NCBI GenBank assembly: GCA_002238725.1
Contig: MPMX01000018.1
Coordinates: 1 to 64,000 of the forward strand
DNA length: 64,000 bases
Source of the DNA: Rhodospirillaceae bacterium bin65
GTDB taxonomy: Bacteria > Pseudomonadota > Alphaproteobacteria > Bin65
Direction: 5' to 3'
Within the stretch, counting starts at the first letter, position 1; each line of letters begins with the position of its first letter. Shown one piece after another: positions 1-11,052 of the stretch. The position numbers and the translations under genes were made by a program. Below the pieces are notes generated by a model. The model searched no databases, had not been told where the DNA came from, and saw nothing but the letters and a program-made list of their open reading frames with translations.

Positions 1-102
1 CCATACGATGTAGGGCCTGTCCTCGGGAACGAGGGCCTCGACATTGCGGTTGTTGAGGGTGATCTTGCGGAGCGCGGTGCGCTTGCCGGTCTGTGTTGAC
101 AT
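1..102 (-). CDS. Tyrosine-type site-specific integrase, N-terminal end only (runs off the window)
   Basis: The leftward frame starts at ATG 102 and leaves the window after 34 codons. The peptide begins MSTQTGKRTALRKITLNNRN and ends with a VPEDRPYIVWD-like stretch, the usual opening of phage-type integrases with an arm-binding N-terminal domain. The catalytic domain lies outside the window, so activity cannot be judged. An excisionase-like HTH gene on the same strand 360 bp upstream (464-682) fits an integrase/excisionase pair at the end of an integrative element. Recognition rests on a short peptide. Confidence 0.55.
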   Translation of the reverse strand, partial: MSTQTGKRTALRKITLNNRNVEALVPEDRPYIVW

Positions 103-239
103 ATTCGGGTCCCTGCGAAAATCCGTCGAAATATCATCATACAGATCAACACGAAAATGGCAATGGGAGGCGTATCCTTGGTGGGTATGGCTTGGGGTGG
201 CGACCCGACGGACTGCTGTAACTCCTTGTATTGTCGAAT

Positions 240-263
240 GTTGGCAAGCCATGCGCTGCCAAC
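240..263. repeat. Inverted repeat upstream of the integrase
   Basis: Perfect 7-bp arms (GTTGGCA at 240-246 and TGCCAAC at 257-263) enclose a 10-nt loop, about 140 bp upstream of the integrase start. It could be an integrase arm/accessory site or a transcript hairpin. No U-tract follows, so it is not called a terminator. Confidence 0.4.
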
Positions 264-318
264 CGTTGCCATGCGTCGTTGATGCCACTAGAACATTCGG
301 ATTCAACCGCGTTGAACT

Positions 319-468
319 CATCGTGACATCACCGTCACCCACTGCGACGAGCGCCGCGCCCGGGCCGACATTGAGGCCTTGGTCGAGACCTCGCCGGTGG
401 AAGTGCTTGTGTTCGATACGACGAGCGGCCGCCCGGTGTCGGTCAACCGCGAGGCGCGGCGGATCATC
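319..468 (+). pseudogene. PAS-domain sensor protein fragment
   Basis: The frame reads RRARADIEALVETSPVEVLV and then FDTTSGRPVSVNREARRII, which resembles the start of a PAS domain in histidine-kinase or response-regulator proteins. Nothing recognisable precedes or follows: a stop lies at 313-315, and the PAS-like sequence ends where the oppositely oriented HTH gene ends (464). The rest of the PAS fold and any kinase domain are missing, so this is read as a decayed fragment. The identification is from motif memory only. Confidence 0.45.
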
Positions 469-682
469 GCGCGCCCAGCCTGTCCGCCTCCGCCGTCGTG
501 GTTGCCCGGCGCTTCACCGCCCACGCGTCCAGATCAGACCTGCGATACCGCACCCGGTTGCCGAAGCGGTGGAAGGCGGGCCCGTTCCCGCTCACGCGAT
601 AGCCGTCCAGCGTGCGGTGCGAGAGGCCGAGATAGTCCGCCGCGCGCCTGGTGTCGAAGAATCCGCTCTCATCGCCGCTCAT
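464..682 (-). CDS. Excisionase/MerR-like helix-turn-helix protein, 72 aa
   Basis: A small DNA-binding protein. Residues about 7-60 form an HTH_17/excisionase-type domain (FFDTRRAADYLGLSHRTLDG, then a wing ending RYRRSDLDAWAVKRR). ATG 682 is chosen because the domain begins directly after it, although the frame stays open to 1054. The leader up to there has no family resemblance and a purine-rich GGGGCGG lies just upstream of 682. It sits behind the integrase on the same strand, so a role as recombination directionality factor or element regulator is likely. A longer protein from an upstream start cannot be excluded. Confidence 0.65.
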   Translation of the reverse strand: MSGDESGFFDTRRAADYLGLSHRTLDGYRVSGNGPAFHRFGNRVRYRRSDLDAWAVKRRATTTAEADRLGAR

Positions 683-1192
683 GTCGCCCGCCCCTTCGAT
701 TGCCCGATGTGCCCGACCGTCCGCCCCGCCGGCCCGGTCCCGCCGACGCGAGACCATGTGGTCAGACGTACGCGGGCGGGCCACGTGAACGTAGGCGGAG
801 CCGCCCACGTTTTCAAAGCCGACGGTTAGGGGAAATCCTGCATTAGCCCGCCGTTCGGCCCCACGCGCGCGCTCCCGCGCGACGGCACCGTCACCGGCCC
901 GCGCTACATACCCGTACCCAGGTATTGCGAGTCCGGTCGCAAGCCTGCCTGGGCGATCCTCGCGGTCATCGCGATACCGCCGCACACGGCATCCCCGATG
1001 CCCTCCCTCAGTGTCCTGGCACCCGCGAGATCGCATCCGGCAATAAGGAGTCATGCGGACGCATGCGTCCGTGCCACAACGCGCGGTTTCGGATCCGGAT
1101 CGCTCTCTGGATGCTTACGGAGCTGGAGTCGGTCCAGCGGGGAAGTTCAGAAAAACCTTATATACTGGCTAGTTATAAGGTTTCTGGGTGTT
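683..1192. other. Gene-free stretch with an AT-rich inverted repeat at its right end
   Basis: No frame here has protein-like features. The left part is only the upstream extension of the HTH gene frame. The right end carries the inverted repeat at 1153-1183, directly next to the truncated MalT-like gene. Confidence 0.4.
1153..1183. repeat. 10-bp inverted repeat at the break of the MalT-like gene
   Basis: AAACCTTATA (1153-1162) and TATAAGGTTT (1174-1183) are perfect inverted copies around an 11-nt loop. They lie 10 bp beyond the premature stop of the truncated ATPase gene, in AT-rich DNA unlike the flanking GC-rich coding sequence. This suggests the terminus of a small mobile element or a recombination junction. 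A hairpin terminator is the alternative. Confidence 0.45.
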
Positions 1193-1534
1193 TCATACGA
1201 CGTGCGTGTCGAGAACGCCAGGCTCATCCTGCTCGTCCACGGAAACCCAACCGGTGCGCACCCCGTCCTCGCGCAGCCGGCGACAGCACTCGGCAAGCAG
1301 GGTCGTCTTGCCGAACCCGCCGGCCGCCTGCACTACTGTGAGACGCCGGCGGGTCGGCATGGCGAGCTCGACCAGCTCCGCGCGGTGGAGATAGCCGGCC
1401 ACCCGCTCGGGAACCGAGACTTTCTGGCCCAGTAGCCAGGGAAGCGACCGCCCGTCGTCGGAGTGTCTGCCGTTGTCCGCGGACGATGACCGCGTGTCGC
1501 CGCCTCCGGTCGCCATCGGATCGGTACCGCTCAT
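1193..1534 (-). pseudogene. MalT/LuxR-family ATP-dependent regulator, N-terminal fragment (113 aa)
   Basis: The protein begins with a Ser/Asp-rich leader, then LPWLLGQKVSVPERVAGYLH, then the P-loop AAGGFGKTT (residues 70-78) and WVSVDEQDEP. This order is typical of MalT-type STAND ATPase regulators, which normally run to about 900 aa with TPR repeats and a C-terminal LuxR HTH. Here the reading frame stops right after VLDT, where the family continues, and unrelated AT-rich DNA with an inverted repeat follows. No sensor or HTH region remains, so it is probably a pseudogene. Confidence 0.7.
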
Positions 1535-2603
1535 CGCTCGTGCCCGGAAAGAGACGGCAGACCGCGCCCAAATCGCGCTCTCTCCCAGACCACCGCAACC
1601 ATCCGCAGACTACGGGGATCGGCACCATTAATTATCGACATACCATGTGTAGACATGCCGTAAGCTTATGGCTCCCATAACACTCTTGCAGCTACTTAAA
1701 TGTGTAGTGTAATACAATAAACAAGCTGCAAATATGACTGCAAATTTACTACAAGTGCGTAAGCGATACGGCAGGGCACCTTCCGCTCAGTCTCGGGATT
1801 TGAGACTCCGTTACGTTCGTGAGGACGTAGGGGAGTTTCTCCATGGAGCGCACTGCGGAGTTTCTCAGTCCGGTCGAGTGACCGCGGCGTCCGCGGTCGA
1901 CGGTGAATTCGCCAACTGAGCACCCGCTGGCCAGAGCTGCGGACCGGGAGCGAACGGCCTTGTCCCTGTCACTCCCGGCACAGCTCTCGGGGGCCGCCGG
2001 CCAGAGGGTCGGCTGCATCGAAGCGGGGACTGCCGACCCCGAAGCGTACGCGCACGGCGTCGATATCGAGCGGAAGCACCGGACCTTCCTCGATCGGAGC
2101 GGCCGGCAGGGACGAGGGGGGGCCGGTCATTGTGCCAGGCGCCGCCCGGACGCCCGGGCGGGCTTGCATATCGTCGTCGAGCCCTTGGCGTCGCCGAACC
2201 GGATGCTGAACGCCATGCCCTATGCCAACGGCGCCGGCGGGCTCTGGAACAGCCGCTTCGAAAACGTTGAACTCCCGCATATGCGGCTCCAGCCGGACTC
2301 GGTAACAAAATCCCAAAATTTGGTTATCTATTCCAGTAAACGACTGCATAACAATTGCCTGACCAGATGTTCTGGTTGTCAAAGACTGGTAGAAATTCTA
2401 CCGAATGTGGATTATATTTGTAGTTTGGTATTGTAGTATTATTGCGGATAGACCCTTCAATCCTACAAAAAATAATTGAGGAAGAACTCGCGTTTTCCCA
2501 GTAACCTTCGGAACCATCGTTCGACAATGAGTGTGTCGGCGCGAATGTCGACGTTGCTTAGCCGGTCGACGAGGGATGACGCTGCAGTACGGGGATATTG
2601 GAC
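1535..2603. other. Gene-free mosaic region
   Basis: AT-rich blocks (about 1640-1760 and 2290-2480) flank a GC-rich block (about 1860-2280). Open frames on both strands of the GC-rich block are low-complexity or Arg-rich and I recognise nothing. One rightward stretch near 2190-2290 looks mildly protein-like but has no family I can name. It may hold decayed gene remnants. Confidence 0.35.
2388..2402. repeat. Perfect palindrome in AT-rich DNA
   Basis: GGTAGAA and TTCTACC face each other around a single A. A second smaller palindrome (CCAGA-TGT-TCTGG, 2363-2375) lies 12 bp away. These are possible operator or element-end sequences in otherwise gene-free DNA. Confidence 0.35.
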
Positions 2604-3062
2604 ATGGCCGAAGATGACACGGTGACCACCGACTGCATCGCAGCCGGGCGCATGTTGCGGAACCCCAAGACGACGATCCATGTGGGCGATTCAACCGACG
2701 GGGACGTCCAGGGCGGCGAGGTGGATTTGCGCGTATGGCATCGATTTTTCCGCGGCGCGAGAGCCAGTGTGGCCGATCTATTTCGCGCGGCTGTGACGCA
2801 ACAAATTGTGAACGCTCTGCGAGGCCCGCTGGACGAGCGATCCGATGAGCCCGGGGACGGCGATGGGGCATGCTCTGACCGGTCCGCGCCTGGGGGAACG
2901 TTGGAAACGTTCGGCGAGTCGGCACTTAGCCCCCCACCAATGCCGCACGGGTATGGAAAAGGTGAAGGAACACTCGAGAAATCCAATCTTGAGCGGGACT
3001 GGCGGCCCGAAGACGGGCTGCTAGACGAGGAGATTCTGGAGCCTCGGTCTTGCATGCGTTAG
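2604..3062 (+). CDS. Hypothetical protein, 152 aa
   Basis: Not recognised. ATG 2604 has a GGGGA 8 bp upstream; an in-frame TTG at 2598 is less well placed. The product is acidic and hydrophilic, with no membrane segment or signal peptide. Residues about 20-75 have mixed alpha/beta character with a VWHRFFRGARASVADLFRAA helix, and the C-terminal half is Gly/Pro/Asp-rich. It lies alone among mobile-element debris, so it could be an orphan gene or a chance frame. Confidence 0.35.
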   Translation: MAEDDTVTTDCIAAGRMLRNPKTTIHVGDSTDGDVQGGEVDLRVWHRFFRGARASVADLFRAAVTQQIVNALRGPLDERSDEPGDGDGACSDRSAPGGTLETFGESALSPPPMPHGYGKGEGTLEKSNLERDWRPEDGLLDEEILEPRSCMR

Positions 3063-3532
3063 TGTCGGTCGGACAATGTTGGATCCCCGGTATAATCTAG
3101 TCTCTGCGGATTCCGACTAATTTGACCGTTGTTCTGTCGAAGTCGGACCGCGACAAAAGCTGGAACCAATTCCGCCACGGTGCCACGTCAATCTGCAATT
3201 ATTGAACAAAATATCTTCTCCTCAGAACCATGAATTGGAGATTTCGGAAACGGTCACCAAATAGAATTTAGATTTTGTCAGTATAGGGACAGCAATCGAC
3301 AGCATGTGGAGACCGGTTACCATTTTCGAATCTGAAGACAAATTCGAAGCCGAGGAAGTTAGGAGTGCGGATGGCGGCTGATCGGGTTCGGAACGGGAGG
3401 GCGCTCAGGCCGGACCGGCCGGTCGACCCGATGACCGGGGAGCGGGTGGCGCCCGTCGGGGGTTTCGCCGCCCGACCTGTCGGCCAACGAGCTCCGCAGC
3501 CTCAGGCGCGCGCCGATGTTGCCGAGACTGCC
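3063..3532. other. Gene-free stretch, AT-richer
   Basis: Nothing recognisable on either strand up to the IS66 remnant. The base composition is clearly lower in GC than the core genes to the right. Confidence 0.4.
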
Positions 3533-3652
3533 GAGGCGCTTGCCTGGCTCGCCGACGTTCTCGGCCGCATCGCCGAGACGCCGCAGGGCTGGCTCGACGA
3601 CCTCCTGCTCTGGAACTGGGAACCCGCGTCCGAGCGCGGCCTGGCCGACTAG
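3533..3652 (+). pseudogene. IS66-family transposase, C-terminal remnant
   Basis: The last 39 residues of a frame open from 3365 match the C-terminal domain of IS66 TnpC transposases: LAWLADVLGRIAETP, then LDDLLLWNWEPAS. Intact TnpC is about 500 aa with a DDE domain and a zinc-finger region, all absent here. The sequence before residue 57 does not look like transposase. It marks past IS66 insertion and later decay. Confidence 0.65.
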
Positions 3653-3696
3653 GCTGGGATCTTTACCGATCGCTCTTCGCCAGCAGGGTGCGGCCC

Positions 3697-4236
3697 TCAG
3701 AGGAAAAAGCCCAGCACGACGGCAACAACCAGCCCTGCTCCCGTTGCGATGGCGCCGTGCCGCCACAGCTCTCGTTCAGACAGAGCGAGCCAGAGCCCCG
3801 CCAAAATTGCGAAGATCAGGCCGATGGCGGTGATGCGCTGCAGCCATTTGAACGCGAGCGGCCCGTGTCCCTTGTGCAGCTCGATCAGCCGCTTCTGCAG
3901 ATCCGGCACGGCTTGGGTCGCCTCGACGCTCCCGTCTGCAACCTTGAAAACGTAATAGGTGCGCGAGGTCGGACGTGTGGTGAGCGTCGAACCACTCTTC
4001 TTGATGTATTCGAAACTGTGGTCGATCCCGGCCTTCTGGAGCAGCGCATCGACGTCCGCCTTCAGGTTTGTGGATTTGGGATCCAGCTTCGCGTCCGCGG
4101 GCAGGGAGACAGCGCTATCGACTGTCGTTCCCTTGATGCCCACAAGGTAAAGTCCCCCCGAGATCGCGATGATCAACAGGATGGGCGTGAAGAACGCGGC
4201 GACCCAGAGGTGCATGTTAATCCATAGTTCGCGCAT
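3697..4236 (-). CDS. PepSY-associated transmembrane protein, 179 aa
   Basis: An inner-membrane protein. A first membrane helix at about residues 8-32 (LWVAAFFTPILLIIAISGGL) precedes a periplasmic region of about 100 residues resembling PepSY-type folds (TYYVFKVADGSVEATQ), and two C-terminal helices follow (about 133-152 and 158-178). This is a small version of the PepSY-TM architecture, whose members are linked to iron uptake or redox partners. Its own role is unknown. It lies 111 bp downstream of the GPP34-Rieske gene on the same strand, so the two may be cotranscribed. A redox or lipid-related partnership is only an inference from position. Confidence 0.7.
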   Translation of the reverse strand: MRELWINMHLWVAAFFTPILLIIAISGGLYLVGIKGTTVDSAVSLPADAKLDPKSTNLKADVDALLQKAGIDHSFEYIKKSGSTLTTRPTSRTYYVFKVADGSVEATQAVPDLQKRLIELHKGHGPLAFKWLQRITAIGLIFAILAGLWLALSERELWRHGAIATGAGLVVAVVLGFFL

Positions 4237-4347
4237 GGCATCTTCATCCTTTCCGTGTATCGATCGAGCGGGTGGGGAGTGCAGGCGGAAGGCCCGCCGG
4301 CGACGGCCCGGGTGCCCGAGTGCGGGCGGGTTTTCGGCGGCGGTGCG

Positions 4348-5292
4348 TCATGTGGCCGGCGCCAGTTCAATCGTTCCGCCCTTCACGCGCACCGCGTAGC
4401 TGCGCAGGCGCCGGCGCTCCAGCGGCGGCTTGACGATAGAGCCGTCCGTCACGTCGTAGGTCCAGCCGTGCGCCGGGCAGGTCAGTCGGCAGTCGTCCAG
4501 GTGTCCCCGGACCAGCCGCGCGCCGGCATGTTCGCAGCGCCCGTCGACGGCGTAGTAGCGCCCGTCCACATTGGCAATCACATACTCCTTGCCGTCGTGG
4601 GACACGGATGCCAGACCGCCCAGCGGGGGCAGTTCAGAATCCGCGCCCACAGCAATAGCGACCCGCTTGGCGGGCGGCGTCCTGCGGTCCTGAACCGCCC
4701 AGGAGACGGCGCGAAGCATCAGGTCCAGCCGGCTCGCCAGCGCGATACGCTCAGAGGCACCCTCGAGTTCCCGCTTCGACAGCAATTGCTTTGAGATGCC
4801 GCAGGTGTCCGCGAGGCCGACGATGGCGCTGTCGCGAGGGTCGGGAATCTCGTCGCTGAACAGCACCGACATGATCCGCAGCTTCACCTCACGGTCGGCC
4901 TTGCCGTCGATCGTCGGGTAGCGACGCGACCGAAGCACCCACATGAAGCGCTGGTCACGGAACTCGAGAATGCCCTGCTCAACAAGGCGTTCGAGCGAGC
5001 GCACCCGAATCCGCTCGGCGCCTTCCGCCGTGGTCTGGACCCAATATCGGGCGTCGAACGTCTCGGGCGTCTCCGCGATTTGAGCGAGGACCGGGTCGAG
5101 GAGGTCGTCGCCGACGGGAGCGGGATCGACCACGAAGAGCCGTTCTGGGTCGGTGTCGATCCGGCCCTCCAGGGCGAGGTCCATCAGCACCCCGCCCGCC
5201 AGCGCGCAATGCAGCGACCATCTGGGTACGCGGGCAAACTCCCCGCCGTCGTCCAGGATGAGAAGCATGATCTCTTCGGCAAATCGCAGCAT
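4348..5292 (-). CDS. GPP34 (GOLPH3/Vps74-like) domain fused to a C-terminal Rieske [2Fe-2S] domain, 314 aa
   Basis: Residues 1-200 follow the bacterial GPP34 pattern: LRFAEEIMLLILDD at the start, LAGGVLMDLALEGRID, a PVGDDLLDPVLAQIAE stretch, and SLERLVEQGILE. In eukaryotes this fold binds phosphatidylinositol-4-phosphate on Golgi membranes; bacterial members are poorly characterised. Residues 210-314 are a Rieske ferredoxin with C253-x-H255 and C272-x2-H275, the complete cluster ligand set. The N-terminus fits the family start, so ATG 5292 is kept despite a weak RBS. The two domains are in one uninterrupted frame. The natural guess is a lipid- or membrane-associated electron-transfer protein, but no oxygenase partner is adjacent. 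It probably forms an operon with the PepSY-like gene downstream. Confidence 0.85.
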   Translation of the reverse strand: MLRFAEEIMLLILDDGGEFARVPRWSLHCALAGGVLMDLALEGRIDTDPERLFVVDPAPVGDDLLDPVLAQIAETPETFDARYWVQTTAEGAERIRVRSLERLVEQGILEFRDQRFMWVLRSRRYPTIDGKADREVKLRIMSVLFSDEIPDPRDSAIVGLADTCGISKQLLSKRELEGASERIALASRLDLMLRAVSWAVQDRRTPPAKRVAIAVGADSELPPLGGLASVSHDGKEYVIANVDGRYYAVDGRCEHAGARLVRGHLDDCRLTCPAHGWTYDVTDGSIVKPPLERRRLRSYAVRVKGGTIELAPAT

Positions 5293-6066
5293 GGGCTCGG
5301 CTCGATCTTTCTTCGGAGACGGTGATCGGAAACGTGCACGACACGGCGGGCTCTCTCGTCGAGAGGGTCGAGCATCTTTCTGGCGGTATCGACGATTCCA
5401 CCGCGCGTCTTTGCAAGTATTCCGACGTACTCGAAGGCGGTGCAGCCGTTGTTACCTCGTCCAGCGAGCACCTTCCTCGATCGAGTGAATCGCTCTCCGA
5501 CGCTAACCGGGTTTGTCGCCGCCAGACTCTTGGCGGTCGCTGCGACAACCCACTTACCCACACCTCCATTGAGGCTCACTCCACCAACACCGTACTCGGG
5601 GGAATGGACAAAAGGCCGAAGTGAGAATTTTTGATCGGCAAAAAAAATAAATGATTTTCAGTCGGAACCGCGGGCCGCCTGGTCCTCGGGTTACCACCAC
5701 GGTGAATGGTCCGCGCCTCCCGTCCGATCGAAGGACCGGTGGGAAAACGGTGAGATTCCGGGAGCGAAGGCCGTACAGGATCGACACGACAACTCAAACA
5801 CGAAAATCTCCGCTTTCAACTGCCCAATGGCTTTCCAGCCAGCTCGAATACTATGCAAAAACAGATATTTTGGAATACCTATTTTGTGTAGATAATCTAT
5901 TGCCATCGTAGTGAGGCATTATTTGGAATTCTACAAATTCCATTTTCTAAGACTACATAATCGCGTTACAAATAAAGCACCCGCCGCACCGCGATCGCAA
6001 GAAAATTGCCGAACCGTTAGGCGGCACAAGAGGGCGCCGATAACGGCCAGTTCCACATTCGCCATC
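5293..6066. other. Gene-free stretch upstream of the GPP34-Rieske gene
   Basis: No supported gene. The leftward frame from 5579 runs into the GPP34 gene in another frame and has no recognisable domain. The part from about 5620 to 5960 is AT-rich. Any promoter of the GPP34-Rieske gene must lie here, but no consensus boxes stand out. Confidence 0.35.
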
Positions 6067-6213
6067 AGGACCGGTGCCGCGAAGAGCAAGGAGCAACAGG
6101 CGATCCCGGTGCTCCACCGGAAGCGCCAGCGGCGTGTGAATTTCCGCACCGCGCAGATCAACGGTTTGCGCGGCCTTCTGACCGAGTATGGCGAGGTGAT
6201 GCCGCGGAGTTAA
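6067..6213 (+). pseudogene. IS110-family transposase remnant
   Basis: The last 48 residues of an open frame (AAKSKEQQAIPVLHR, then RTAQINGLRGLLTEYGEV) match the segment after the DEDD domain of IS110 transposases, normally VPVKSxEQQA followed by a Q-INxxRGLLxEFG motif. The preceding DEDD catalytic part and the following C-terminal domain are not recognisable. A dead remnant. Confidence 0.65.
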
Positions 6214-6729
6214 GGTCTGGCCGGGAGCTCGCCGTTTGATTCGGCTTGGCGCCACGGCACAACGGCACACCCAAGTTTGAAGAGGCGTTCACACAACCAG
6301 ACACGGTTCGCCCGCTCGGCGCACAGTCGGATATCCCAGAAGTCCGAGGTTCCCGGTGACGCGCCGGATATGTCGAGGGGGGGCAGTGCCGGTTTGGCGA
6401 CCGGAGGAACATTGGTAATTTTGTAGTTCCAAAGTGCAATGAATGCATATTGATGAGTTAGTGTTTGTAGACTTAATTTGTAGTACAATGTCCACAATTT
6501 GCAAATGTAAAACGTGCAAACTCTACACTATTTTATCTGATCTTCCTGTTGAAATCTTCGATCCAAGACGGCAAGCTCAAAATGGGTTCTGCAGCTATTT
6601 GGGCGCCGATCGATTGTCCTCGGCGCTGGAGACCGTCTGGATACAGCAGCTCGCGGTGGTTTGGGCGTTCCTCGCGATCAAGGCGGAAAGGAAGGATCGC
6701 GAGGTTTATCTGCGGGACTCTTCCATGAA
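6214..6729. other. Gene-free stretch between the IS110 and RecQ remnants
   Basis: A GC-rich left part and an AT-rich block (about 6400-6560). Nothing recognised on either strand. Confidence 0.35.
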
Positions 6730-6855
6730 ATGCCGGAGTCGCATCGCGAACCTGGTGGCGCGATCGTCTACTGCGCGACACGGAACCAAAGCGAGGAGAT
6801 CGCCGAGTACCTGCAGCTGAAAGAGGTGGCGGCCGATCATTTTCATGCGGGCCTG
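6730..6855 (+). pseudogene. RecQ-type DNA helicase fragment
   Basis: Within a short open frame, GGAIVYCATRNQSEEIAEYL, then VAADHFHAGL, corresponds to the first motif of the RecQ helicase C-terminal RecA-like domain. The next expected part (a P-E-x-K segment leading to the DATNAFGMGI-like motif) is replaced by unrelated sequence. The ATP-binding N-terminal domain is absent. This is a fragment of a once larger gene, perhaps an island-borne helicase. Confidence 0.6.
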
Positions 6856-6978
6856 TTGTTCGGCTCGGCTGTTGGACGCCGATCAGCATGATAACTCATT
6901 GAAGTTGAAGATGTCTGGGGGTCAAAAGCACGCGCCGAATGACAGTTCGGCAAGCGCGCACTCAGTCGACCCAATTTC

Positions 6979-7644
6979 GTGGAACGGCTCGCCGTGCAGC
7001 AGACGGTGACGCTGCAGACGGCAGACCGCCTGCTCGGTTTCCTGGGCGAAGCGCCGATCGGCCCCGTCTTCAGACGCGAGGTCGAGGCCTTCCTCGACGT
7101 CACCGCCACAAGGGCCACGAGGTTCGGAACCGATGCCGCTGGCTATCCGTGGTTTGTCGACGCGCTCGGCGACGGAGCGGCGACGCGACTCTCTGCGGTG
7201 GAACGGGTGCGAGCCTGGATGGTTGACGCCGCAACCCCTTCCGAGCGCGCCGTGATCGCAAGGATGCTCAAGGACGCCGGCAGCACGACATTCATCCATG
7301 GCGCGAGCACGTTCGTGCAGGACGACAGGTCGCAGGGAAAGACCACTCCGGCGTCAGAGGCAGACCAGGCTGCCGGCAGGCATCCACCCGAATATCGCCG
7401 CCAGGTCTTTCTGACCAAGCACGAAGCAGCCAGCGTCCTCAGGATTGGAGTACGCAAGCTGGAACGCCTCCAGGCGGCGGGCGAGGGCCCTGCATGCTGC
7501 AGGTTCGGGAGACAGGTCTGTTATGCGCGTGCCGATCTCCTGACCTGGGCGTGGACGCAGCGCGTGAATGCGCGCGAAAGCAACAGACAGGCCGTTTCCG
7601 CCAAACGGCGTCGAGGTCCACTGAAGCACCGCCAGAATTCGTAA
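6979..7644 (+). CDS. Hypothetical protein with C-terminal excisionase-type HTH domain, 221 aa
   Basis: Residues about 142-195 form an HTH_17-like DNA-binding domain (FLTKHEAASVLRIGVRKLER, then a wing ending VCYARADLLTWAWTQRV), the same type as the small protein at 464-682. The roughly 140-residue N-terminal part, helical and ending in a polar linker, is not recognised. The start is a GTG (6979) without a clear RBS, so the true start may be later. Base composition is GC-rich like the core genes but the surroundings are mobile-element debris. It is probably an element-borne DNA-binding protein. Confidence 0.55.
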   Translation: MERLAVQQTVTLQTADRLLGFLGEAPIGPVFRREVEAFLDVTATRATRFGTDAAGYPWFVDALGDGAATRLSAVERVRAWMVDAATPSERAVIARMLKDAGSTTFIHGASTFVQDDRSQGKTTPASEADQAAGRHPPEYRRQVFLTKHEAASVLRIGVRKLERLQAAGEGPACCRFGRQVCYARADLLTWAWTQRVNARESNRQAVSAKRRRGPLKHRQNS

Positions 7645-7743
7645 AAAATCTGCATTCTACTTGATGACTGATCCTGGACTTTCCGCTTTAAGACGTCGAG
7701 AAATAAGAGATTTATTCAAATATTACAATGACCTATAAGATTG

Positions 7744-7866
7744 GTACGAAGTCCTCTCCGGACTAAGTCCGGGGCTACTCGGGGTGAGGGAGGAGGGAAA
7801 TCGGTTGCCGTCCTTACACTACTCACCCTCACCCTGAGTAGCCGCGAAGCGGCGTATCGAAGGGCG
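7744..7866. repeat. Type A palindromic element, copy 1
   Basis: Two half-palindromes face each other. The left one contains CTACTCGGGGTGAGG and the right one CACCCTGAGTAGCCGCGAAG followed by CGGCGTATCGAAGGGC. The right half closely matches halves at 32537, 55821 and 60580. It lies between two convergent genes (7644 and 7928), so it could act as a bidirectional terminator in RNA. Confidence 0.75.
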
Positions 7867-9879: not shown

Positions 9880-11052
9880 ATGCAGTTCTTCGCCGACACG
9901 CCGCTGCCCGACCTTGCGCCCTACGCCGGCCTGCGCGCCGAGGTGCGCGTTTTTCTGGCCGAAGAGCGGCAGCGCGCCGGAGTCGACAGCTGGGTCGGCT
10001 CCTGGGAGGGTTTCGACCGGGGTTTCAGCGCGCGGCTGGCGGAACGCGGCTGGGTCGGCATGGCGATCCCGCAACGCTATGGCGGCCACGAGAAGGGCCT
10101 GCTCGAGCGCTATGTCGTGCTGGAGGAATTGCTGGCGGGCGGCGCGCCGGTCGCGGCGCACTGGATCGCCGACCGGCAGACCGCTCCGCTGATCCTGCGC
10201 TTCGGCACGGAGGAACAGCGCGCCTGGTTCCTGCCGCGCATCGCGACGACCGAAATCTGCTTCGCCATCGGCATGAGCGAGCCCGACAGCGGCTCCGACC
10301 TCGCCGCGGCCCGGACCCGGGCCGAGCCGGTCGGCAACGGCTGGCGCATCAACGGCACGAAGGTCTGGTCGTCGAACGCCCACCGCGACGACTGGATGAT
10401 CGCGCTTTGCAGGACCGGGGGCAGGACCGGCGATTCGGGCGAGGACCGCCCCGATGACAGACATGGCGGATTGAGCCAGTTCCTGATCGACCTCAGCGCG
10501 CCGGACATCGCGATCCGCCCGATCCACAATCTGGCGGGCGATCATCATTTCAACGAGGTCGTGTTCGAGGATCACGACATCCCAGCCGACCGGATCGTCG
10601 GCAATCCGGGCGACGGCTGGCGCCAGGTGATGAGCGAGCTGGCGTTCGAGCGCAGCGCGCCCGACCGCTTCCTCTCGACCTTCCGCCTGATCGTCGAACT
10701 GGTGCGGGCCGCCGGAACGGCCCCCGACCCGGTGACGGCCCGGGAGATCGGCACATTGGTGGCGCGGCTGGCGGCAGTCCGCCTGCTCTCGATCCAGGTC
10801 GCCGGCGCGCTCGACCGGGGAGAGACGCCGAACACCGAGGCGGCATTGGTCAAGGAGGTCGGCACCGCATTGGAACAGGACACGCCGGAGATTGCGCGGC
10901 GCATTCTGGCGGAAACCGCGGCCGGTGCGCGCCCGGCACTGCTCGAAGAACTGCTGGCCTACGATGTGCTGCACACGCCGTCCTTCACCCTGCGCGGCGG
11001 CGCGCGCGAGGTGGTGCGCGGCATCGTCGCCCGCGGGCTGGGGCTGCGATGA
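9880..11052 (+). CDS. Acyl-CoA dehydrogenase family protein, 390 aa
   Basis: An FAD flavoprotein that introduces a 2,3-double bond into an acyl-CoA. It has an N-terminal helical domain, the middle-domain signature FAIGMSEPDSGSDLAAARTR near residue 130, and a C-terminal helical domain ending FTLRGGAREVVRGIVARGLG, equivalent to the usual GGTxEIxR motif. Length is typical. It overlaps the next acyl-CoA dehydrogenase by four bases (ATGA), so the two are probably subunits of one heteromeric enzyme, as in the actinobacterial steroid and side-chain ACAD pairs. The substrate is unknown. Confidence 0.9.
   Translation: MQFFADTPLPDLAPYAGLRAEVRVFLAEERQRAGVDSWVGSWEGFDRGFSARLAERGWVGMAIPQRYGGHEKGLLERYVVLEELLAGGAPVAAHWIADRQTAPLILRFGTEEQRAWFLPRIATTEICFAIGMSEPDSGSDLAAARTRAEPVGNGWRINGTKVWSSNAHRDDWMIALCRTGGRTGDSGEDRPDDRHGGLSQFLIDLSAPDIAIRPIHNLAGDHHFNEVVFEDHDIPADRIVGNPGDGWRQVMSELAFERSAPDRFLSTFRLIVELVRAAGTAPDPVTAREIGTLVARLAAVRLLSIQVAGALDRGETPNTEAALVKEVGTALEQDTPEIARRILAETAAGARPALLEELLAYDVLHTPSFTLRGGAREVVRGIVARGLGLR

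Follow-up and report, generated by a model that had tools for sequence, protein, structure and literature searches.

GOLPH3-like proteins have been called not previously described in prokaryotes, and Streptomyces SCO4440, which has a GOLPH3 domain only and is encoded next to a carboxypeptidase gene, affects peptidoglycan and wall-deficient cells (PMC12402492). The PepSY_TM proteins FoxB and CrpH carry haem or haem-binding His residues on both membrane faces; PepSY_TM reductases pass electrons via two haems, and the electron donor of FoxB has been called unknown (PMC13038864). Members of both families meet in the DNA analysed here, a stretch of 64,000 nucleotides at the start of contig MPMX01000018.1 of Rhodospirillaceae bacterium bin65 (the window), in which a GPP34 (GOLPH3/Vps74-like) domain is fused to a Rieske [2Fe-2S] ferredoxin domain and the fusion gene is followed by a gene for a small PepSY_TM protein.

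The fusion gene (4348..5292) is located on the minus strand and runs without a stop from 5292 down to 4348, confirming the single uninterrupted frame of 314 residues given in the initial annotation; a reading of 4348-5292 on the plus strand was rejected, as a stop is present in this register. Residues 1-201 (4690..5292) form the GPP34 domain, with Pfam GPP34 (PF05719) matching residues 5-201 over profile positions 2-199 of 201 (131.2 bits against a cut-off of 29.1, E = 6.7e-38). A linker of residues 202-212 (4657..4689) leads to the Rieske domain, residues 213-299 (4396..4656), which matches PF00355 with 64 bits against a cut-off of 20.3 (E = 1e-17). The ligand set of Rieske-type ferredoxins, CxH-X16/17-CxxH, is complete and comprises C253-E-H255 (4528..4536) and C272-P-A-H275 (4468..4479). 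All four ligands are conserved in the only other copy of the fusion, at locus L019, where the first motif is the same and the second reads CPVH; standalone ferredoxins of Chloroflexota share the first motif and have CPLH as the second. The protein, 314 residues long, ends directly behind its Rieske domain and lacks the C-terminal catalytic mononuclear-iron domain of Rieske oxygenase alpha subunits. The Rieske domain almost certainly serves to carry electrons. With both Pfam matches far above the curated cut-offs and the four ligands at the positions named initially, the proposed joining of GPP34 to a complete Rieske domain holds. Our literature search found no paper mentioning both 'GPP34' and 'Rieske', and the earlier statement that no GPP34-Rieske protein had been described agrees with the literature searched. 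The fusion is thus a genuine domain architecture, which is new and combines two known families.

An AlphaFold2 model of the fusion had a mean pLDDT of 76.6, with values of ~90 across most of GPP34, mostly 50-70 in the Rieske part and low at residues 205-218. Superposition of the GPP34 model on five GOLPH3/Vps74 entries gave Z scores of 16.8-18.3 over 177-192 residues (VIA-align Z 18.3 to Vps74 2zih and 18.2 to GOLPH3 9qpq), and the GPP34 fold initially assigned to the N-terminal part passed this comparison. Fusion residues 1-203 have the fold in common with GOLPH3 and Vps74 (Z 18, ~22% identity), whereas two insertions present in the eukaryotic proteins are missing from the fusion, which is bacterial and carries a redox domain. 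The model of the Rieske part (residues 207-312), of moderate pLDDT, aligned over ~100 residues with the dioxygenase Rieske ferredoxins 2qpz and 5bok, with a Z score of 12.4 to both. Fold, CxH...CxxH ligands and domain size are those of dioxygenase Rieske-type ferredoxins (NDO ferredoxin 2qpz, BphA3, CarAc); these, however, are single-domain proteins with oxygenase partners, whereas the fusion has an N-terminal GPP34 domain and a PepSY_TM neighbour.

PI4P is contacted in human GOLPH3 by residues that we take to be W81, R90, R171 (or K) and R174. The corresponding columns of our alignment hold P, A, E and R in the fusion, so that only R174 is kept; the W81 column lies near a loop, where the alignment is possibly off by a few residues. 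R90 is missing from every bacterial GPP34 aligned. The fusion differs from a GOLPH3-type PI4P effector in lacking W81, R90 and R171, and because three of the four contact residues are absent a GOLPH3-like mode of PI4P recognition is unlikely.

Scanning the genome collection with the fusion returned 80 loci, and the whole query was spanned by one of them only. This locus, L019 (5729-6670) in genome G096 (Alphaproteobacteria bacterium isolate jk18x34bins.19, another alphaproteobacterial lineage), encodes the same fusion at full length with 91% identity. The remaining GPP34 matches end at about residue 200-235 and belong to standalone GPP34 proteins of ~217 aa. Window and L019 share a block of 1.6 kb (3686..5293, minus strand, 90.4% DNA identity) that extends from the fusion start codon to ~11 nt past the PepSY_TM stop and contains just these two genes, whereas the flanks are unrelated. 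The borders at 3686 and 5293 are gene-precise, and a search for repeats, promoter or terminator sites there gave nothing convincing. The check proposed in the initial annotation, that is, both domains in one protein elsewhere with the PepSY-like neighbour kept, had a positive outcome, as in L019 the fusion is followed by PepSY_TM. As for homologues in which a stop would separate the halves, the result is twofold: the sole full-length homologue is also fused, but in Chloroflexota the halves are separate genes at different loci.

The two copies of the fusion gene show 90 differences, distributed 18/13/59 over codon positions 1/2/3. The resulting dN/dS is ~0.18 for the whole fusion, 0.18 for GPP34, 0.11 for Rieske and 0.12 for PepSY_TM, and it peaks at ~0.42 in linker codons 201-212, a value derived from 36 nt only. 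Both copies keep all ligands without a stop or frameshift. These ratios indicate that GPP34, Rieske and PepSY_TM are under purifying selection.

The neighbouring PepSY_TM gene (3697..4236, minus strand) is separated from the fusion gene by 111 nt, of which 91 positions are conserved in L019 without any length change. The well-conserved end of this spacer contains AAAGGAT (4246..4252, minus strand), the probable Shine-Dalgarno sequence of the PepSY_TM gene. Its product, P0002 (179 aa), has three predicted TM helices and scores 32.4 bits with Pfam PepSY_TM (cut-off 28.8), the match covering positions 3-163 of the 295 in the profile. This bears out the PepSY-type downstream neighbour of the initial annotation, and the same gene follows the second fusion copy. 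Two His residues, H9 and H121, are conserved, one near each membrane face. FoxB/CrpH-type proteins have at least four TM helices and two His per face, as compared to three predicted helices and one conserved His per face in P0002. Given a single PepSY unit, three predicted TM helices and H9/H121, a P0002 homodimer could supply the His pairs and so rebuild a two-haem arrangement. Sequence and fold searches of the PDB with P0002 gave no meaningful match, a solved PepSY_TM member included, and its model is so poor (pLDDT 56) that it cannot exclude any family.

Fusion and PepSY_TM genes were found only together among the congeners of the window genome, the relatives of G096 and a 385-genome sample of the class. 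Both are absent from six congeners and from six G096 relatives, and P0002 is absent from every other genome of the class sample. The GPP34 domain of the fusion shares 63% identity with the standalone GPP34 encoded in the window genome; in G096 the nearest other GPP34 reaches 48%, as against 91% between the two copies of the fusion. The two hosts are probably not close relatives, since G096 is not among the eleven genomes sampled for the window's order and in the tree its close relatives have standalone GPP34s that cluster on their own, separately from those of the window genus. A genus-typical acyl-CoA dehydrogenase gene at 9880-11052, with counterparts of 81-95% identity in each of the six congeners, places the window contig in its genus. 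Only from 7758 onwards is the contig syntenic with G005, the nearest congener; the pair therefore sits in sequence specific to this genome, which occupies at least the first 7.7 kb of the contig (1..7757) and has no counterpart in G005. Excisionase-like HTH_17 genes flank the pair in this region (464-1054, minus strand; 6979-7644, plus strand), and the ORFs tested in 1-7757 included neither a transposase nor an integrase. The 'mobile-element debris' of the initial annotation is hence supported only in part, by the genome-specific region and by the HTH_17 genes at both its ends, but not by any transposase or integrase among these ORFs. Near the pair, at 1193-1534, is a truncated fragment of a STAND/MalT-like ATPase; the contig of the other genome carries a relative of it (79% DNA identity) ~10 kb away from its own copy of the pair (L145:17682-17931). 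Defence-system models gave no match, viral contigs contained no relative of either gene, and plasmids yielded no match over 80% of the fusion, with partial matches below 60% identity only. Taken together, the second copy, the differing flanks, the relatives without the pair and the purifying selection demonstrate that fusion and PepSY_TM gene are a real, selected and horizontally moved two-gene module.

Separate relatives of the parts are found in Chloroflexota. Several of the 400 genomes sampled from this phylum (for example G524, G657, G681 and G779) encode a standalone GPP34 (62-67% identity) and a standalone Rieske ferredoxin (52-62%, mostly ~112 aa) at different loci, and relatives of P0002 with 46-51% identity occur in three Chloroflexota genomes only. 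In both loci examined around the latter, a heavy-metal P-type ATPase gene adjoins the PepSY_TM relative (L158:1452-4459 and L159:1540-4596); the small PepSY_TM protein of these loci carries a His-rich insert. The separate Rieske and PepSY homologues of Chloroflexota are not adjacent, and the pairing is restricted to the two fusion-bearing genomes. Because Chloroflexota encode the halves apart, the fusion looks assembled from separately existing genes, most likely from a Chloroflexota-like source, although this direction is presumed. Neighbours of the standalone Rieske genes were considered as a clue to the redox partner and rejected. In Chloroflexota the gene is preceded by one for a GNAT acetyltransferase, in most cases with an overlap between the two, and a short-chain dehydrogenase gene is oriented divergently (L179:3176-4544; similarly L177, L180, L182 and L184); in Latescibacterota the standalone relative follows a LysM/SLT gene; neither GNAT nor LysM/SLT explains a partner. 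Standalone GPP34 proteins at L020-L098 show 57-66% identity, unusually high for hosts as distant as Chloroflexota, Gemmatimonadota, Actinomycetota, Latescibacterota, Deinococcota and Pseudomonadota metagenome genomes. Side-by-side GPP34 duplicates are present in L022, L023 and L041, and no shared neighbour of standalone GPP34 stood out across phyla.

The fusion is not an isolated case. It is one of at least three architectures in which GPP34 is joined to a redox protein, and in the bacteria concerned GPP34 is also commonly encoded as a standalone protein. At 22 loci from several phyla, GPP34 is followed by a cytochrome P450 in one protein of ~660-700 aa (among them L103:2221-4245 (G000:C50), L107, L110, L113, L139-L144, L160, L161, L163-L165, L170 and L172-L174). 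One of these proteins is encoded in the window genome itself (L103), next to a KshA-type Rieske oxygenase; such a KshA-like gene precedes the GPP34-P450 gene in L103 and L140, and a sterol-methyltransferase-type gene adjoins it at L173. In a Chloroflexota genome (G460, L168:3969-6032) the GPP34-P450 gene is broken by a single in-frame stop codon. At eleven further loci (L105, L106, L108, L135-L138, L166, L167, L169 and L171) GPP34 precedes a His-rich multi-TM domain with invariant His in its membrane part, for which L108 gave a weak DUF4079 match. A multihaem cytochrome c gene starts ~16 nt after this fusion gene in both loci scanned (L108 and L166), and a Tll0287-like gene is located near the fusions of L108 and L135. 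GPP34-redox fusions occur in the window genome, its congeners and G096. All 50 genomes of a set that, by name, represents at least six phyla had GPP34, and in 36 of them the match lies in a frame of at least 600 aa, the size of the P450 fusions; this count is by frame size, P450 identity having been checked in the retrieved loci only. Many of these genomes presumably come from marine sponges, judging from the metagenome names. No description of GPP34-P450 fusions was found in the literature searched. In the tree of GPP34 domains the membrane-domain fusions form one supported group and the Rieske pair another, with the P450 fusions largely separate, and because the three types sit apart the joinings to redox modules appear to have been independent.

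As these partner types recur, GPP34 is most easily seen as a redox-docking module. The coupling of a lipid surface to electron transfer suggested in the initial annotation has therefore to be divided: the repeated fusions to P450 and to the His-rich domain argue for redox docking, whereas lipid binding is weakened because human W81, R90 and R171 have become P, A and E. For the fusion itself, our preferred reading, with a probability of about 0.36, is a GPP34-docked Rieske ferredoxin at the inner membrane face that would probably feed electrons to the PepSY_TM protein. The N-terminal GPP34 domain would tether a soluble Rieske-type ferredoxin either to the cytoplasmic membrane, on its inner side, or within a complex bound to the membrane. 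The likeliest partner of this ferredoxin would be the PepSY_TM protein transferred along with it, which is related to the haem-carrying FoxB and CrpH but has half their size. A cytoplasmic reductase would reduce the Rieske cluster, GPP34 would keep the carrier near the membrane, and the cluster would pass its electrons to a PepSY_TM haem on the cytoplasmic side (H9), from where they might traverse the membrane, possibly within a homodimer, to reach a haem at H121 on the opposite side. There they would reduce a substrate outside the cytoplasm, for example a metal or a metal chelate. Membrane docking, PepSY_TM haem, direction of electron flow and substrate are all putative elements of this scheme. 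In its favour are the fusion with its ligands, both model folds, the low dN/dS, the inseparable gene pair, the other GPP34-redox fusions, the haem sites of FoxB and CrpH (PMC13038864) and the heavy-metal P-type ATPase beside the Chloroflexota P0002 relatives. Against it stand the PI4P contacts W81, R90 and R171, which are not conserved, the shortness and poor model of P0002, and the lack of Rieske-PepSY adjacency in Chloroflexota.

The chief rival to this reading is electron supply to the GPP34-P450 or KshA-like oxygenases: the fusion would be the ferredoxin of a monooxygenase system, perhaps for sterol or lipid oxidation, brought to its partner by GPP34-GPP34 assembly or shared docking. Eukaryotic Vps74 and GOLPH3 can self-assemble, the best matches of the Rieske domain are dioxygenase ferredoxins, the GPP34-P450 gene of the same genome adjoins that for a KshA-type oxygenase, and a sterol-methyltransferase-type gene lies beside the GPP34-P450 gene of L173. 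However, the congeners carry GPP34-P450 without the fusion, which is therefore not needed for GPP34-P450, and the companion with which the fusion travels is PepSY_TM and not an oxygenase, so that we regard this role as doubtful. A redox sensor or switch, in which the Rieske cluster sets the binding state of GPP34 (and PepSY_TM) under oxidative or metal stress without a catalytic current, is improbable. Such a role would suit one small cluster on an adaptor-like domain as well as the metal-efflux-type ATPase beside the Chloroflexota PepSY relatives, but no regulatory gene is conserved with the fusion, and its Rieske domain resembles carrier ferredoxins rather than known sensors.

Functionless passenger DNA that arose by chance fusion and now drifts would account for the very patchy distribution over two genomes and for the location in a genome-specific region with remnants. 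The dN/dS of ~0.1-0.2 on GPP34, Rieske and PepSY_TM, the retained ligands and the intactness of both copies make this quite improbable. An error of assembly or binning comes to mind as the window genome consists of 94 contigs and that of L019 is metagenome-assembled, but the same fusion on two contigs with ~10% DNA divergence and unrelated flanks, and the genus-typical acyl-CoA dehydrogenase on the window contig, leave such an artefact scarcely credible; the independent second copy refutes it in practice.

The main value of the fusion is that it belongs to a pattern not described before, in which bacteria combine GPP34 with redox modules. Tentatively, and with considerable doubt, we propose that GPP34 is a bacterial redox-docking module which, across many phyla, became linked in separate events to P450, to a His-rich membrane domain and to Rieske, bringing electron-transfer partners together on the membrane, the cassette being a mobile electron-supply unit. 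If so, the cassette would combine a membrane-tethered Rieske ferredoxin with a mini PepSY_TM haem protein and point to the donor of PepSY_TM reductases, for which it is a compact candidate. Bacterial GPP34 has almost no assigned role, and the recurrent redox fusions provide a first testable functional theme; had GPP34 begun as a bacterial membrane-enzyme adaptor, this would be relevant to how the eukaryotic Golgi adaptor originated.

Compared with the described systems, the fusion shares a bacterial GPP34 domain with Streptomyces SCO4440, for which, in contrast to the fusion, no redox domain is reported (PMC12402492). P0002 resembles FoxB and CrpH in matching PepSY_TM and in having conserved His residues near membrane helices (PMC13038864), but is about half their size, with one PepSY unit and a weak Pfam match. 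The closest architectures are the GPP34-P450 and GPP34-membrane-domain fusions, which are encoded in this genome and its relatives and likewise carry a redox module behind an N-terminal GPP34, whereas the GPP34 of the Rieske pair lies inside neither of their tree groups.
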